DNA of 64,000 bases from Clostridia bacterium (GTDB lineage Bacteria; Bacillota; Clostridia; Christensenellales; Borkfalkiaceae). Below, one piece after another: positions 1-8,295 of the stretch. The stretch's first letter is position 1, and each line of letters opens with the position of its first letter. The stretch covers positions 1 through 64,000 of the forward strand of contig JAGAIW010000116.1 of assembly GCA_017626305.1 (NCBI GenBank), given 5' to 3'. The notes beneath the pieces were generated by a model. It had not been told where the DNA came from. It saw nothing but the letters and a program-made list of their open reading frames with translations, and made no database searches. Made by a program: the position numbers and the translations under genes.

Positions 1-1054
1 GTTCTTCTTTATACCAGTGTCTATAATTAGAAGTATATAGCTTATGCTCCTGTTTGCCTTTTCTAGCGATAACTATGTTTAACTTTTGATGAACCCCTTG
101 GAACAAGCAGTCAGGTCTATCGGCAAAATTCAATATAAATTGTGTATTTGTGTTTTCAATTACATAATTGCGAATATTTGCCATTCTAGACGTTGAAATG
201 TACGACAAGGGTATGATAAACCCAAACGTACCGCCTGCTTTCAAGGACAATATACTATTTTTTATAACGTCGGCATAAATATTTCCGTAATTATTTTTTA
301 AACTATCCTTGTTTTCAAACTTACCGTATTCCACATAAGGGGGGTTGCCAACAATACAGTCGAACGTACTATTAAATTGACCGTTGTAAACTACATAATC
401 TATATTGCTAAACTGCGCATTCAACGCTTTTGCTATTAAATTGTAATATTGCGAACTCTTGACATATTGACAAAGCTCGAAGAACAAACGTATTTTACTT
501 ATATCTGTAGAATTCGTATCAATATCATTACCGTTTAGCGTTTTACTTATATAGAAGACATCTGAATCGGTATATGAAATCCCATTGTTTAGAAGTATGT
601 CTAGTTTTGCTTTTAATACGTGCAATAAGAATTCACCAGTTCCACATGTGGGGTCGAAGAAAGTTTTTTTAACGAGCAACGATTGAATGATTTCTTGTGG
701 GTATTGTAATACCTTGTCAATTGCGTCTTTTTCTTTATATGTGCGATGATTATCCGAATCCAACATCATTATTATTGAATTCCAAACTATATATTTGCAG
801 ACATCTTCAGGGGTATAATAAACACCGTTGTTTTTTCTAATTTCAGACTTTTCGTTGATTTTTGACAAACTTATTTGGAGTTCCGCGTTAGTTTTTGAAT
901 CGACTGATTCTATAAAACTGTATTTTTCTGCATTGTTTCCTAATAAGGTTATAAGGGCATTGCGAATGACCCCATGAACCTTTTGTTCCATGGAGCTTAT
1001 GTGCGCTGACACAATTTCGCTAATTTGGTTGTAGATATTTGTTGTTTTTTTCAT
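1..1054 (-). CDS. N6-adenine DNA methyltransferase, partial (C-terminus beyond window)
   Basis: Class I SAM-dependent DNA methyltransferase of the N6-adenine type, expected to methylate adenine within a specific DNA site, either as part of a restriction-modification or defence system or as an orphan. I translated it from the reverse strand: it starts at the ATG complementary to 1052-1054 and stays open to base 1, giving about 351 residues. Motif I reads DPTCGTGEFLLHVL near residue 135 and the catalytic motif IV reads NPPYVEY near residue 230. A helical N-terminal region precedes them, as in type I HsdM and type IIG enzymes. No nuclease or specificity domain can be seen in the visible part. 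It lies downstream of, and on the same strand as, a small XRE regulator inside a mobile element. The exact subtype is undetermined. Confidence 0.85.
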   Translation of the reverse strand, partial: MKKTTNIYNQISEIVSAHISSMEQKVHGVIRNALITLLGNNAEKYSFIESVDSKTNAELQISLSKINEKSEIRKNNGVYYTPEDVCKYIVWNSIIMMLDSDNHRTYKEKDAIDKVLQYPQEIIQSLLVKKTFFDPTCGTGEFLLHVLKAKLDILLNNGISYTDSDVFYISKTLNGNDIDTNSTDISKIRLFFELCQYVKSSQYYNLIAKALNAQFSNIDYVVYNGQFNSTFDCIVGNPPYVEYGKFENKDSLKNNYGNIYADVIKNSILSLKAGGTFGFIIPLSYISTSRMANIRNYVIENTNTQFILNFADRPDCLFQGVHQKLNIVIARKGKQEHKLYTSNYRHWYKEE

Positions 1055-1477: not shown

Positions 1478-2872
1478 TCAGTTGAATATCTCTTCCAGTT
1501 TTTGGGCGGCGGAACGGTCGGCTGTTTTTAGGAAGTGGCTGTATATGTCGGTGGTCGTGCTGGTTCGCGCATGACCCGCTCGACCTGCGACCGTTACGAT
1601 GGGAACTCCTGCGGCGATTTGCATAGTGATGTTTGTATGTCGTAGGCTGTGGACGGTTCGCTCTTCAAGTCCTGCCGTCTGGCATATTCGTTTCATCCAC
1701 ATATTTATCGTGCCGGGGTAAATGTTTCCGCCGTATTCGCCTATAAATAGGCGGTTGCTATTTTCCCACTTATCGCCGTGCATCTCTCGGTATTCTTCGT
1801 ACCAAGCCTTGTATTCGGTCAGGACGGTTATCAGTTTATCCGATATGGCGATTACGCGCTTACTGCTTTCGGTCTTCGGGTCTTTTAATACTAACCCAAC
1901 CCTGCGGACGGCGGTGAGCGACCGTGCTATGGTTATCGTAGCGTTATCGAAATCGATATCCGACCATTCCAGTCCGCACAGTTCGCCACGGCGCATGCCT
2001 GTTAGAAGAAGGATAAGCATAGCCGTCTTGTATCGAATGTCTGGGAACTCGTCCGCCGCCTTGTAGAACCTTTTGGCGTCTTCGTCGTCCATATAGTCAA
2101 TATCGCGTGGTGGTCGTTTGGGAAAGGTTATGTAGTCGGCGCTAGCGTAGTTATCGGCTATCAGTCGTTGTTTTTTTGCCGTAGCGAGAACCGCTCGTAT
2201 CGTGCGCTTAATTTTGCTTATCGTTTCGTAAGCGTATTTTTGCGTTGTATGCGTGACATTGAAAAGGTTTTCCGTTTTCTCGCCTAGCGTTTCGGCTAGC
2301 CGTTTGGCGTACTCGTAACTAATTTGCTTGCCTGCCAGCGCGTTGGAAAGGGAGCAACTACTGAAATTCTTTTCGTATCGAAGTTTCATATAGCTGATAC
2401 CTGTTTGGTTCATTCGCTCCCGAAGAGCAGGCTTTGCCGTGACAACCGTCACAGTCTTTTCCATACGGTCTAGTTTGTCGTAGTATTGCTGTATGATATT
2501 CGGTGTAAGTTCTTTTAGTTTATAACCGCCGATATGCTTGTTGGTCAGTTCTATGGCGCTTTCACAGTTGACGAAGTAACTTGCTGCGACTTCGTTCTTT
2601 CGCCTTTTTAGCCACCAGAGCGCGTAGTCTGAGAAAGTGGTTTCAGCCGATTGCGTCGGCTCTCCTGATGCCGTTTCTAAGGCTTTAATCGCGTTCTCAT
2701 ATTCGCTTGCAAATATCACAACTTCTCGTTCCATTTGCTTGAGTGTAAGTCCGACGGGCGGTTTCCAGGTAGTAGAGTGAACTTTAATTTCTCCGCTACC
2801 TTTGTCCTTGATTTTGACCTGTATTCGGTAGGTCATACCGCTTTTACTAGGTCGTTTGCTTATACTTGCCAT
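1478..2872 (-). CDS. int: tyrosine recombinase / integrase with an embedded HTH
   Basis: Site-specific tyrosine recombinase that integrates and excises the element, 464 residues. The catalytic residues can be read: Arg294 in TGMRRGEL, His408 and Arg411 in HSLRHT, His434 in GRAGHA and the nucleophile Tyr444 in TDIYSHF. The N-terminus (1-60) looks like an AP2-like arm-binding region. The SAM-like core-binding domain starts near residue 80. An extra segment of about 50 residues (155-205), with sequence like a small XRE helix-turn-helix, interrupts the core-binding domain. The start follows GGAGG at good spacing. It is the last gene of a leftward block after the excisionase and replication genes. 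The tRNA-Arg fragment at 8251-8295 is the likely product of its activity. Confidence 0.95.
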   Translation of the reverse strand: MASISKRPSKSGMTYRIQVKIKDKGSGEIKVHSTTWKPPVGLTLKQMEREVVIFASEYENAIKALETASGEPTQSAETTFSDYALWWLKRRKNEVAASYFVNCESAIELTNKHIGGYKLKELTPNIIQQYYDKLDRMEKTVTVVTAKPALRERMNQTGISYMKLRYEKNFSSCSLSNALAGKQISYEYAKRLAETLGEKTENLFNVTHTTQKYAYETISKIKRTIRAVLATAKKQRLIADNYASADYITFPKRPPRDIDYMDDEDAKRFYKAADEFPDIRYKTAMLILLLTGMRRGELCGLEWSDIDFDNATITIARSLTAVRRVGLVLKDPKTESSKRVIAISDKLITVLTEYKAWYEEYREMHGDKWENSNRLFIGEYGGNIYPGTINMWMKRICQTAGLEERTVHSLRHTNITMQIAAGVPIVTVAGRAGHARTSTTTDIYSHFLKTADRSAAQKLEEIFN

Positions 2873-2961: not shown

Positions 2962-3156
2962 TTAGCCTTGCGAACCGCTAAAATATTTGAATAAATCGTC
3001 TAAATCCACGAGAAGTTTCTTTCCCGTGAATACACACCGTATTTTACCACTTTTGCAAAGGGTTCTAATACAGTTAGGGGTTACCGCCGTCATGGGGTCA
3101 ATTGCTTTAATTTCGGCGATGGTTTCGGTTATCGTTCTCATTCTAGGTATAGTCAT
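2962..3156 (-). CDS. excisionase-like helix-turn-helix protein
   Basis: A 64-residue small DNA-binding protein with the layout of excisionases: an N-terminal helix, a winged-helix turn around TPNCIRTLCKSGKIRC, and the wing VFTGKKLLVDLDDLFKYF. This matches the HTH_17/Xis pattern in which residues 25-60 form the MerR-like wing. It lies 90 bases upstream of the integrase gene on the same strand, the usual xis-int order, and starts after GGAGCATTAG. Its role would be to bend DNA at the attachment site and favour excision. That function is inferred from family and position. Confidence 0.8.
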   Translation of the reverse strand: MTIPRMRTITETIAEIKAIDPMTAVTPNCIRTLCKSGKIRCVFTGKKLLVDLDDLFKYFSGSQG

Positions 3157-3166
3157 CTAATGCTCC

Positions 3167-3550
3167 TTAATACTCATAAATTTTTCTCCTTTTCTTTGAA
3201 TCTTTGTTTCTTTGAATCTTCGTTGCGTCGTTGCATTGTTGCGTCGTTGCATTGTTGCGTCGTTCTTTGTATCTTCGTATCTTTGAAATCTTTGAATTTT
3301 TGAATAAATTTTGATTTTCGTTTGAATTAAAATCAAAAATCAAAACCAAACGGAGTGGCGTATTTTTAGCATTTTTCAACGGTTTTGCCATAAAAATTGC
3401 CGTTTTCGCCACTTCGAACGAATTTTGAAAAGCAATTTTGATTTTGCGCTTTGATTTTTGATTACGCGAAAACTTGCGTATGACTGCCGCCCCGCTTATA
3501 GGTCGATTCGCGTAGAGATTTGACCTCCCCCTGGGGGTGTACGCACGCAT
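3167..3550 (-). CDS. doubtful hypothetical ORF over a repeat-rich spacer
   Basis: An open frame of about 127 codons running through a low-complexity region. Its C-terminal part is rich in Arg, Asn and Lys because it reads through 16-bp tandem repeats and purine-rich DNA. No clear ribosome site precedes the ATG at 3550 and no domain is recognised. The first half is basic and lacks an obvious fold. It fills the space between the 130-residue unknown gene and the excisionase gene. It could be a real element-specific protein, but a non-coding spacer, perhaps regulatory or replicative, is at least as likely. Confidence 0.25.
   Translation of the reverse strand: MRAYTPRGRSNLYANRPISGAAVIRKFSRNQKSKRKIKIAFQNSFEVAKTAIFMAKPLKNAKNTPLRLVLIFDFNSNENQNLFKNSKISKIRRYKERRNNATTQQCNDATKIQRNKDSKKRRKIYEY
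3225..3264. repeat. 16-bp tandem repeat, 2.5 copies
   Basis: The unit GCGTCGTTGCATTGTT occurs twice in tandem, followed by the partial copy GCGTCGTT. Flanking DNA (3190-3224 and 3265-3300) repeats TTTGAATCTT-like words. The unit length is not a multiple of three, so it does not encode a repeating peptide. Confidence 0.9.
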
Positions 3551-3552
3551 AA

Positions 3553-3945
3553 TCAGCAAAGGCAGTTACCAACCAGTAGACTGGCGTCGCCTTGTTCTTC
3601 ATAGGCGCGCAGCTTGTCAAGGTCTTCACGAATTCGTGTAAGAGCCTCTTCGCTTAAGCAAGTAAAAAGTCCGTACGCGTCCGCCTCAATACTTTCGGAA
3701 TAGGGAAAACCTTCTATGCTGGGCCAGTAATCGAACTGATGCAGGCAATAGTTAATTTTACTATATTCGTTCACAAGCGAAAGCACCTCGTCAAGAGGCT
3801 TGTCCTTACACTCACGTAGTTGTTTGTAAAGGCTGCCGTTCTTTTCCATAAGCCAGTTTAATGGATAGCATGCATAGGGTTTAAGGCATTTCAAGTACGG
3901 GTGCTTTTTAAGCGTCTCGTTTACTAAAGTTTTGTGATGTTTCAT
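3553..3945 (-). CDS. hypothetical element protein
   Basis: A 130-residue soluble protein that I do not recognise. It has an aromatic and cysteine-containing N-terminal half (KHPYLKCLKPYACYPLNWLM) and a helical acidic C-terminal half (EEALTRIREDLDKLRAYEEQ). There is no signal peptide or membrane segment. The ribosome site GGAGG lies inside the last codons of the upstream helicase-loader gene, so the two are very likely translationally coupled. Its place directly after the loader suggests an accessory role in element replication or maintenance, which is only an inference. Confidence 0.7.
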   Translation of the reverse strand: MKHHKTLVNETLKKHPYLKCLKPYACYPLNWLMEKNGSLYKQLRECKDKPLDEVLSLVNEYSKINYCLHQFDYWPSIEGFPYSESIEADAYGLFTCLSEEALTRIREDLDKLRAYEEQGDASLLVGNCLC

Positions 3946-3946
3946 A

Positions 3947-4765
3947 TCAAATTCCTCCGTTGATAAATTTTAATAGTTTTTCCTCGTTTTGTTTGCGTAC
4001 GAGGTCACGCATGTTTTCGCAGTCTAACTGCTGTTCGAATAGGCACGAGCCTTTAATTCGGTGCGCCGTTCGTTCTTCGTAGTTACAATTTACCATAAGG
4101 GCGCTGATGCGGTAGTTGCTGGAATAGATTGTCGGCTTTTTAGCGTTAATGCGAGTGTTGATAAGGTCAAACGCTATCGTTTGTAGCCAACCCGTACCAG
4201 CCTTGATGTTTTCCGTACCGATATCGTCTAGGAATAGAAAGTCAACCGTTTCGGCTCTACGGAGTACGGCGGACTGCGCCGAGTTATTTCCAAAGCCTTC
4301 TTTCAGTTTGCTTTCAATCTCCACAAAACTGGTAAATAGCACGGTGTACAGTTTGTTTGCCAGGGCGTTGCCCATACAAGCGGTAAGGTGGGTTTTTCCC
4401 ACGCCGGGGACGCCGTAAAGATAAGCGCCGACCCCCGCATCATACATCTTATCCGCGTGCGTGCAATAGTTCTGACACATCTGGTAGACGGCTTTATTGC
4501 TGGGTATAATCGTAGCCGTTTCAAAAGTGCAGTTCCTAAAATGCTTTCCCAGCGCGCTGTTACGGCGGTATTCTTCAGCCTTGGCTTTCCGCTCCTGTAG
4601 TTTGCGCTCTCGTTCGGCTTTTTCATAAGCCTCCTGACGGCATTTACAAGGAATGTGAAAGAAGTTGTCTTCATAACGGTACACGCGTGGAGTGTGGCAG
4701 TTTTTGCAATAGACAAGACCGTCTTCGCCCAAGTATTCGTCTGGTTGTAATTCAATCGTTTTCAT
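3947..4765 (-). CDS. DnaC-like helicase loader (AAA+ ATPase)
   Basis: AAA+ ATPase of the DnaC/IstB/DnaI group, which delivers the replicative helicase to an opened origin. The chosen ATG at 4765 gives 272 residues and sits behind AGGAGG; a frame start six codons earlier lacks such a site. The N-terminal region holds a likely zinc-binding cluster (CKNCHTPR and CKCRQE). Walker A is GVPGVGKTHL near residue 117 and Walker B is FLFLDDIGTE near residue 180. The arginine-bearing C-terminal part includes NYEERTAHRIKGSC. The gene begins a few bases after the stop of the replication-initiator gene, an order matching phage O-P or DnaD/DnaC-type replication modules. It should act on the host helicase. 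Confidence 0.9.
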   Translation of the reverse strand: MKTIELQPDEYLGEDGLVYCKNCHTPRVYRYEDNFFHIPCKCRQEAYEKAERERKLQERKAKAEEYRRNSALGKHFRNCTFETATIIPSNKAVYQMCQNYCTHADKMYDAGVGAYLYGVPGVGKTHLTACMGNALANKLYTVLFTSFVEIESKLKEGFGNNSAQSAVLRRAETVDFLFLDDIGTENIKAGTGWLQTIAFDLINTRINAKKPTIYSSNYRISALMVNCNYEERTAHRIKGSCLFEQQLDCENMRDLVRKQNEEKLLKFINGGI

Positions 4766-4773
4766 TTTTCCTC

Positions 4774-5184
4774 CTAATCCCATTTGATGCCAAATTTGCT
4801 TTCGTAAGAAATATCATTTTTCTTATTCCTTTTTATATTATGGTAGACAGGTTTGTCTGGGGTTGGCAGACAATCTTGTCTGGGTATAGTAGACAAATTT
4901 GGCGAGTTAGAAATTAAAAAAATAAGGCGTCCACGTCTACCGTTTTTGTGTTGTCCCCATTTGGAAGAAATAAGGTTTAATTTTTTCAATTCCGTAATCG
5001 TTCTCGTAACCGTCCGCTCACTTACGCGTAATTTCTTCATAAAGAAAGTATTTGTGGCAAAACAATAGCCGTTTTGCTGTGATAGGGAAACGATATACCC
5101 GTATAGTAATTTCGCCCGTGGGGATAAGTTTGGTATTTCTACCAGGCTGCTGTTAAGTTTTAAGTAATGTTCGTTTTGAGCCAT
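4774..5184 (-). CDS. helix-turn-helix replication initiator-like protein
   Basis: A 136-residue protein with one winged helix-turn-helix of the HTH_36 type (residues 20-90, including SPRAKLLYGYIVSLSQ and RVSERTVTRTITELKKLN). This fold is used by phage and mobile-element initiators and by DnaD-like proteins. The C-terminal part is proline-rich and is encoded by three 23-bp DNA repeats that look like iterons. The helicase loader gene starts directly downstream. By analogy with lambda O, the protein would bind the repeats inside its own gene and recruit the loader. A ribosome site AGGAGG precedes the start. A purely regulatory function cannot be excluded. Confidence 0.75.
   Translation of the reverse strand: MAQNEHYLKLNSSLVEIPNLSPRAKLLYGYIVSLSQQNGYCFATNTFFMKKLRVSERTVTRTITELKKLNLISSKWGQHKNGRRGRLIFLISNSPNLSTIPRQDCLPTPDKPVYHNIKRNKKNDISYESKFGIKWD
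4844..4912. other. putative replication origin: three 23-bp iterons plus AT-rich flank
   Basis: The words AGACAGGTTTGTCT (4845), AGACAATCTTGTCT (4868) and AGACAAATTTGGCG (4891) are spaced exactly 23 bases apart. The first two are near-perfect inverted repeats, and the third is degenerate on its right half. AT-rich stretches flank the array on both sides (4806-4842 and 4908-4925). The period is not a multiple of three, so the same DNA word is read in different frames (RQDCLP versus PDKPV), which points to selection on the DNA itself. Origin function is inferred from the position inside an initiator gene. Confidence 0.6.
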
Positions 5185-5328
5185 TCGTACCTCCTGTGAT
5201 TTTTAATGTTTTCATGAAAAAGAAAAGAACACCTGCGCTCTAGCAAGTGTTCCTGCTAGCGACGTTATTGTATAACACCGCTATTTTTTATTCCATTTTA
5301 TTCCAAAATACGCGCGCACGCGTAGGAC

Positions 5329-6156
5329 TTAGTTTTCTTTTCTAAATTTGGTTACGTATTCGTACAATTGATTATAGGCATTTTTCATGGCCTCGAAATA
5401 ATCAATCAAGCCGTTGTCAACGTTAAGTAGTGCCTCGCCAACAATTTCTCTTTCCATAAAATAGAAGTCTGCACCGTTGATACCTTTTTCGTCTTGAATT
5501 CCTTGGTAATAATTCATACTGGACATGTCTTTGGCGTAACATTTTCCAAGCGCATTGATAAACGACATCTTTTTATTATGCGCCCATTTTATAAGGTATT
5601 GTCTGTTTTTAGTGGTGGGATTTTTGAGCCTACCATATTCTTCTAAAGTTAAACCCTTCATAATAAGTTCTTCAAAAACGGTTTTGTGCTTTTTAAGGTC
5701 GCTGTTTAGCATTTCCATTATATACTTATAGTCTTTGGCAATATCACGATACTCTTGTTTGGTAAGCCGAAATTCATATTTTATCCCACGCGCTTTTACG
5801 TCAACGCCACGTTTTATATTATAATCTCTACAAGCGCGGTATCTCTCAACGTCAGACTTAATTCTTGATAGTATATAATTAGCCTTGGATATAGGTTCAA
5901 TGGGAACGTTTCTAGTGTTTTCTTCTGCCGTTCTCATCGCCAAATTCTCTTCATCAATTTCGTCATAAATTGCTTGCCCTAAAGCGACGTCAATAAGAAA
6001 GTTTACTTGTTTTACAACTTCTTTATATTCCGCAAGTTGTTCGCTTTTTGTTAAGCCTTGATTAATTATTTCTTCGTTAACGTAATCAATTGTCCATGCC
6101 TTTATATCGTTAAAAGCCTGCAAATGCCTTTTTATTATATCCTTTTGCGTTGCCAT
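5329..6156 (-). CDS. hypothetical element protein, helical
   Basis: A 275-residue protein, mostly helical, charged and soluble, that I cannot assign to a family. Recognisable stretches include a charged helical N-terminus (QAFNDIKAWTIDYVNEEIIN), a basic central part (ECRYRACRDYNIKRG-like region near residue 110) and the aromatic segment NYYQGIQDEKG near 218. There are no obvious catalytic motifs, cysteine clusters or membrane segments. The ribosome site GGAGAAA is clear. It is the first leftward gene of the replication block, separated by about 140 bases from the initiator gene, and a TGACA/TGTCA inverted repeat lies upstream of it. Confidence 0.7.
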   Translation of the reverse strand: MATQKDIIKRHLQAFNDIKAWTIDYVNEEIINQGLTKSEQLAEYKEVVKQVNFLIDVALGQAIYDEIDEENLAMRTAEENTRNVPIEPISKANYILSRIKSDVERYRACRDYNIKRGVDVKARGIKYEFRLTKQEYRDIAKDYKYIMEMLNSDLKKHKTVFEELIMKGLTLEEYGRLKNPTTKNRQYLIKWAHNKKMSFINALGKCYAKDMSSMNYYQGIQDEKGINGADFYFMEREIVGEALLNVDNGLIDYFEAMKNAYNQLYEYVTKFRKEN

Positions 6157-6266
6157 AATTTTTCTCCAAAAAATTCAGTCGGTTCTAGTATATCATATTT
6201 GTAAGGTTTATCCTGTGCAAAAATACGGACACCCCTACAATCATTGTAAGGGTATTGTATCAAACT

Positions 6267-6342: not shown

Positions 6343-6813
6343 TTATTCTATTATAAAGTCTTTTTCGGAGCGGTATAATTTTAGTTCCGTAATATCTGTG
6401 CGATTGCTCATTTTTTGCGCGGTGTCTTCGTTACACATCATGCTGTAGGAGAAGAGAGTGTTTGCCTCGGTATACGTGACAAGACAGGAGTAGCCTTTTT
6501 TGACGGCTTTTTTGTATTCCTTTTCGTCATCCATCAGTTGCAGGATTTCTGCTATAAATAAATCTTCGTCGCCGTCTAACTCTCCGTATTCGGTGATTAT
6601 CGGTCGTTCCTTGAAGTAGCGCTTTATCGTTTCTTCCAGGATAGGAGCGTAGGAGTTATCGTAGTAGACGATATCGCACGAACCGCCGTTTCCGCTGTCG
6701 TTATACCAAGCAACTTTTTTGCCTTTATACCACAGGTCGCCTTGGTTTCCTTGCCAGTCGAGCCCTTGAAAGGTTTTTATGTTCTTTAATGTAAATCCGT
6801 ATATACTTGCCAT
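6343..6813 (-). CDS. hypothetical conserved mobile-element protein
   Basis: A 157-residue protein starting at the ATG at 6813. GGAGG lies eight bases before this ATG and overlaps an alternative in-frame ATG four codons upstream. The opening MASIYGFTLKNIKTFQGLDW and a glycine/asparagine-rich segment (YNDSGNGGSCDI) recall proteins often seen in integrative elements of gut Firmicutes, but I know no established function. The middle is acidic (ELDGDEDLFIAEILQLMDDE). There is no signal peptide or membrane segment. It has its own strong terminator, so it is probably a single-gene unit, divergent from the 7102 gene. Confidence 0.7.
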   Translation of the reverse strand: MASIYGFTLKNIKTFQGLDWQGNQGDLWYKGKKVAWYNDSGNGGSCDIVYYDNSYAPILEETIKRYFKERPIITEYGELDGDEDLFIAEILQLMDDEKEYKKAVKKGYSCLVTYTEANTLFSYSMMCNEDTAQKMSNRTDITELKLYRSEKDFIIE

Positions 6814-6906
6814 TTTTGCCTCCATATATTATTGTTAAGCAAAGTATACCGTAAAGGTTTTCAAGAGCCCAGCGAAAACGGGTTAAATTTTACAAACAAA
6901 AAGTGT

Positions 6907-8241: not shown

Positions 8242-8250
8242 CAGATATAT

Positions 8251-8295
8251 CCTCCTAAGGGCTAGTTGTGGGTTCGATTCCCGCAGGGAGTACCA
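8251..8295 (+). other. attachment site: 3' half of tRNA-Arg(CCU), right end of the element
   Basis: The sequence runs from the anticodon loop CTCCTAA through the 3' anticodon strand GGGCT, variable loop, T arm GTGGGTTCGATTCCCGC and acceptor strand AGGGAGT to the discriminator and CCA. The bases upstream do not pair as a tRNA 5' half: neither an acceptor partner ACTCCCT nor an AGCCC strand is found. The piece is therefore a 45-base remnant, as left by integration into the 3' half of a tRNA gene. The intact or rebuilt tRNA-Arg(CCU) should lie at the other element end, outside this window. Confidence 0.8.

Follow-up and report, generated by a model that had tools for sequence, protein, structure and literature searches.

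We analyzed a window of 64,000 nt from a gut Clostridia bacterium (contig JAGAIW010000116.1, GCA_017626305.1), which begins with 8.3 kb of a small integrative element. Positions 4774–5184 of the minus strand encode a 136-aa protein that we identified as a replication initiator from its Pfam HTH_36 match, its matches to phage replication-initiation families and its structure model. The next gene encodes a DnaC-like helicase loader of 272 aa (3947–4765, minus strand; phrog_50, E 5e-53), whose reading frame is readable from 4783 and whose conserved start is the ATG at 4765. An AGGAGG overlaps the initiator stop codon (TAG), and the loader ATG lies eight bases further. A first-pass annotation of this DNA had correctly put a DnaC-like loader just behind the initiator stop, but at a distance of nine bases.

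The HTH_36 match (PF13730) covers residues 19–72 of the initiator with an E-value of 2.8e-14 and 53.1 bits against a cut-off of 25. The protein is composed of a winged-helix HTH_36 domain (residues ~12–92), a repeat-encoded linker (~93–117) and a C-terminal tail (118–136). Its structure model is a winged helix, confident to residue 93; residues 94–136, which include the repeat-coded part, are predicted to be disordered. The best profile matches are phage replication-initiation families (E to 2e-13); the O-like family phrog_678 matches at only 6e-8 over the HTH, and other initiator families score better. Foldseek returned as best match 4pql (‘N-Terminal domain of DNA binding protein’), weakly (E 1.5e-3, TM ~0.5), and further down the list 4pt7, 4pta and the DnaD N-terminal domain 2v79, all weak; many other winged helices score like these four. 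We take 4pql, 4pt7 and 4pta to be RepA_N initiator domains. Membership in RepA_N (PF06970) was rejected on Pfam, with no PF06970 match at E 0.1; the fold similarity to these three is weak. The additional C-terminal region found in most phage HTH_36 initiators (220–290 aa) is absent from this protein, which stops at 136 aa. Such a region is no requirement for HTH_36 initiators, as the LE1 protein has 180 aa.

Three tandem 23-bp units at 4839–4907 are written over the last third of the initiator gene, and Tandem Repeats Finder reports 4839–4896 with a period of 23. The unit core is AGACA-N4-TGTCT, an exact dyad in two units and half-degenerate in the third (4891–4904). In gene order on the minus strand, unit 1 (4885–4907) carries the half-degenerate dyad CGCCAAATTTGTCT, unit 2 (4862–4884) the dyad AGACAAGATTGTCT at 4868–4881, and unit 3 (4839–4861) the dyad AGACAAACCTGTCT at 4845–4858. 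The first-pass annotation had described three 23-bp repeats in the 3′ part of a helix-turn-helix gene; this holds, with the array starting at 4839 instead of 4844 and with the remaining unit a half site. The best self-match of the gene is at a lag of 23 (P ~0.003 by synonymous-codon shuffles with the peptide fixed and local codon usage). Two like dyads 19–27 bp apart arose in 100 of 20,000 synonymous shuffles of the gene, and no second pair of this kind occurs anywhere in the 64-kb window. Across the units, TGTCT occupies codon positions 2, 1 and 3 and is thus read in all three frames, indicating that the DNA is repeated and not the peptide. A peptide repeat was set aside on this ground; the earlier argument from repeat length and frame was right and had slightly understated the case, counting two frames. 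The array is flanked by AT-rich DNA on both sides, as first annotated. On one side, a stretch of 78% AT (4797–4842, minus strand; top 2% by AT among 46-nt windows of the element) is a candidate DNA-unwinding element and also encodes the conserved tail; on the other, 4904–4930 has 74% AT.

With the loader as bait, we found three further elements: L019 (G709), L020 (G155) and L026/L031 (G731). Relative to the window element, the loader and integrase are 96% and 99% identical in L019, 87% and 91% in L020, and 43% and 81% in L026, the most distant. The initiators of all relatives have 135–143 aa and the same family and layout. We compared the four known alleles with their units aligned on a common anchor, 23 nt per row. 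Every allele has three units at 23-bp spacing in the same place (weakest in L026), the array lies 29–33 nt from a conserved ATATTTCT word in 4/4 alleles, and the 46 nt behind it have 78–80% AT in all four. The unit word is CAGACAAnnnTGTCT in the window allele, TGACAAATATGTCA and TTGACAAGGACGTCAA in L019, TCAAAAACGCG and TTAAATATGCG in L020, and CGGGACAAAACAGCG and CGGGACTCTCCCG in L026. The first-pass annotation had proposed a search for the same 23-bp words in homologous genes as a check, and the outcome is mixed: the words differ, but the geometry is conserved in unit number, spacing and distance to the AT-rich DNA. For lag 23 fixed beforehand, synonymous shuffles of the relatives gave P-values of 0.002, 0.01 and 0.07, the last being the weak case of L026, where another lag scores better. 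Once all lags were allowed, the L019 pattern was not significant (P 0.12). The initiator protein as query found nothing among viral and genome contigs because it is too diverged. Plasmid records held no relatives by loader or by DNA, and a class-wide loader search gave no element beyond those already found. An integrase search returned relatives of 41–56% identity, and the module was not seen in their fetched stretches. Two viral loader relatives (L032 and L033, 33–37% identical) were rejected as having other genes upstream.

The window element and L019 share ~96% identity in the loader gene and, once more, past a 160-aa gene, and 93% in the integrase stretch. Between them, 4848–6248 is replaced, comprising a cargo gene, the initiator domain and the iterons. 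For L019 as well as L020, similarity picks up again at ACCATAAT, immediately after unit 3. Identity to the window protein is 40% in the N-terminal domain versus 84% in the tail for L019, 42% versus 58% for L020, and 38% versus 50% for L026. The repeat words and the DNA-binding domain change together across the four alleles. From these identities and the resumption point, the DNA-binding domain travels with the sites, and the AT-rich part and the tail travel with the loader. The pattern fits exchange of an initiator-plus-iteron cassette between elements through putative recombination events.

We surveyed the wider family by testing phage and prophage HTH_36 initiators with synonymous shuffles and scanning them for dyads. 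Dyads within the gene, for example TGACAAAAATGTCA or CCGCAAAAATGCGG, were found in initiators including those of Cormatin, LLC-1, Funu2, SE-1, G128 and G122, and in a plasmid-borne initiator of Lactobacillus amylovorus; they are commonly 22–24 bp apart and mostly at codons ~100–125, the place where the window initiator has them. AT-rich Asn codons come after the dyads in the phage and prophage initiators. Shuffle P-values ranged from 0.003 to 0.17, and cases with a lag of 24 are less telling than those with a lag of 23 because the peptide repeats too. The pattern was absent in LE1, G057 and the 97-aa protein of phiLdb. The window initiator has the features of this kind of in-gene origin: HTH_36 near the N terminus, spaced dyads behind it and then AT-rich DNA. 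A 376-aa initiator-like protein (L011:967-2097, minus strand) has strong 24-bp in-gene repeats and, by eye, two tandem HTH_36-like domains.

The rest of the element includes a tyrosine integrase (1478–2872, minus strand; 81–99% identity with the integrases of L019, L020 and L026) and an excisionase-like small HTH protein (2962–3156, minus strand), upstream of whose gene lies an 8/16-bp repeat array at 3191–3305 (TCTTTGAA, GTTGCGTCGTTGCATT). A small Cro-type HTH protein at 1125–1334 matches the VanU family at E 5e-22, below the family cut-off, and in G731 and L020 proteins resembling it follow the integrase. A partial Eco57I-type N6 methyltransferase (2–1054, minus strand), restriction-modification cargo, is cut by the contig start. 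Cargo beside the integrase varies among this N6 methyltransferase, two cytosine methyltransferases and a SEFIR-domain protein (2–1054; L020:8630-10711; L031:11046-12014), and looks like an exchangeable defence slot. Behind the loader is a second variable slot, with a 130-aa gene of no assigned function (3553–3945, minus strand) in the window element and L020 and a 105-aa gene instead in L019 and G731 (L019:5839-6156, L031:8493-8810). The 160-aa protein (6343–6825, minus strand) is conserved in near sisters, and 46% identical relatives occur next to genes for terminase and portal in a pair of phage genomes (L027:5947-6501; L028:5764-6495); it is a link between the element and phages. The attachment site is the 3′ part of a tRNA gene, from the anticodon arm TCCTCCTAAGG to CCA (8246–8295, plus strand), judged by eye to be tRNA-Arg(CCU); the element is cut at the contig start, and no far attachment site turned up in the host assembly. 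No packaging or capsid-remodelling genes, as would mark a PICI/PLE-like phage satellite, were recognized in the 8.3 kb of the element in the window, and none by eye in L029–L031, so that the earlier remark on the lack of visible capsid genes stands for the part of the element within the contig and for the sister stretches read.

The replication start site of the element very probably lies inside the gene of the protein that recognizes it. After excision, the HTH_36 protein would bind the three 23-bp-spaced dyad sites in its own gene, where a distance of about two helical turns would align the bound dimers roughly along one face of the helix. The AT-rich part beside unit 3 would then melt, the short C-terminal tail of the initiator would recruit the DnaC-like loader that the following gene encodes, and the loader would place the host replicative helicase. 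Contact between tail and loader is suggested by the conservation of only some 20 residues. The initiator domain and the iterons would form one specificity cassette exchanged as a unit, with the AT-rich part, the tail and the loader staying in place. To this explanation as a whole, an in-gene origin of a small integrative element with iteron binding, a tail-recruited loader and an exchangeable cassette, we assign a probability of roughly 85%.

The repeats could instead be operators through which the HTH protein represses its own operon from inside the gene, without a role in replication. The protein does adjoin the dyad sites, autorepression is common among initiators, and the two roles could coexist. 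However, the sites are some 280 bp downstream of the start codon, which is no promoter position; the closest protein families initiate replication, a helicase loader is encoded next, and in phage 80alpha an origin of this layout has been tested (PMC5499656). Repression alone is therefore improbable. We consider it still less probable that the dyads work as mRNA hairpins, for example coupling or limiting translation of the loader. The RNA folds better than shuffled sequence in three of the four alleles (z = −4.0, −4.3, −3.6 and −1.3), but inverted repeats yield such folding by construction, and the predicted hairpins change in position and pairing from allele to allele. What the alleles have in common is the 23-bp spacing, which is relevant to a protein on DNA, and no Rfam match was found. 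That the repeats arose by chance, or from codon-driven low complexity of a tail that is disordered, draws on the disorder of the modeled linker and the modest per-gene P-values and is the least credible, in view of the synonymous shuffles, the sole such dyad pair in 64 kb, the three frames and the same spacing and place in relatives.

The four natural alleles have a common repeat geometry, and two sit on backbones that are nearly identical; in this compact set, the specificity of the initiator, the words of its sites and its contact with the loader become separable. On the preferred reading, in-gene origins of the HTH_36 kind extend to integrative elements of gut Clostridia that carry defence genes. 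There are hints that the origin type may be under diversifying selection in such elements, as proposed for Vibrio satellites. Perhaps, though this is speculative and we think it rather unlikely, the elements diversify the initiator-iteron cassette like interchangeable locks, for sharing a cell or for evading phage nucleases aimed at an origin type, the only other function of the minimal initiator being that of its short loader-docking tail.

In lambda O-P, iterons lie in the initiator gene and the phage encodes its loader. The window element shares with lambda a loader gene directly behind the initiator, and the comparison with lambda O-P logic drawn in the first-pass annotation is well supported by the in-gene iterons, the AT-rich stretch and the adjoining loader, with 80alpha as the genetically tested case. 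SPP1 gp38-gp39 likewise combines iterons inside the gene of the initiator with a loader that the phage encodes (PMC5499656). Lambda and SPP1 differ in being phages with other initiator families, and the lambda loader is of another type. In Staphylococcus phage 80alpha the origin was genetically placed inside ORF20, beside the DnaC-like loader ORF21; the two genes suffice for autonomous replication, and an ORF20 mutant could not be complemented in trans (PMC5499656). The sequence record also annotates the origin within ORF20. As in our reading of the window element, the gene of an HTH initiator contains the origin, downstream of the part that encodes the HTH domain, with AT-rich DNA beside the repeats and a DnaC-like loader next, and the C-terminal end of ORF20, ...KYDESYWD, resembles ...GGKYSDWD of the L026 allele. 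The 80alpha initiator differs in having 256 aa, a Phg_2220_C domain and a sub-threshold HTH_36 match, and the system has 15/30-bp repeats and sits in a full phage.

For the exchange, a parallel is plasmid pPR9, in which ~500 bp of pSK41 rep is swapped for an HTH_36 domain, the same HTH family as in the window initiator, with its own origin and with nearly unchanged flanks (PMC5703833). Like the window element, these replicons, pSK41 and pPR9, with RepA_N and HTH_36 initiators, have Rep boxes inside rep and exchange domain and origin as a block with the C-terminal part conserved (PMC5703833); they differ in being plasmids with a large DnaD-like C-terminal domain contacting primase and with antisense-RNA control. 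In PLE satellites the DNA-binding domain of the initiator and the iterons covary and swap while the C-terminal part is conserved, and escape from an origin-directed nuclease is a proposed driver (PMC8263062); PLE is a Vibrio phage satellite with a RepA_N domain and an origin outside repA. In-gene origins with a phage-encoded loader (lambda, SPP1, 80alpha) and swaps of the initiator domain together with the origin while the flanks stay conserved (pPR9, PLE) are thus already known. What distinguishes the present case, and is somewhat unusual, is a minimal initiator without a further C-terminal region, on a defence-carrying element, in a series of swapped alleles.
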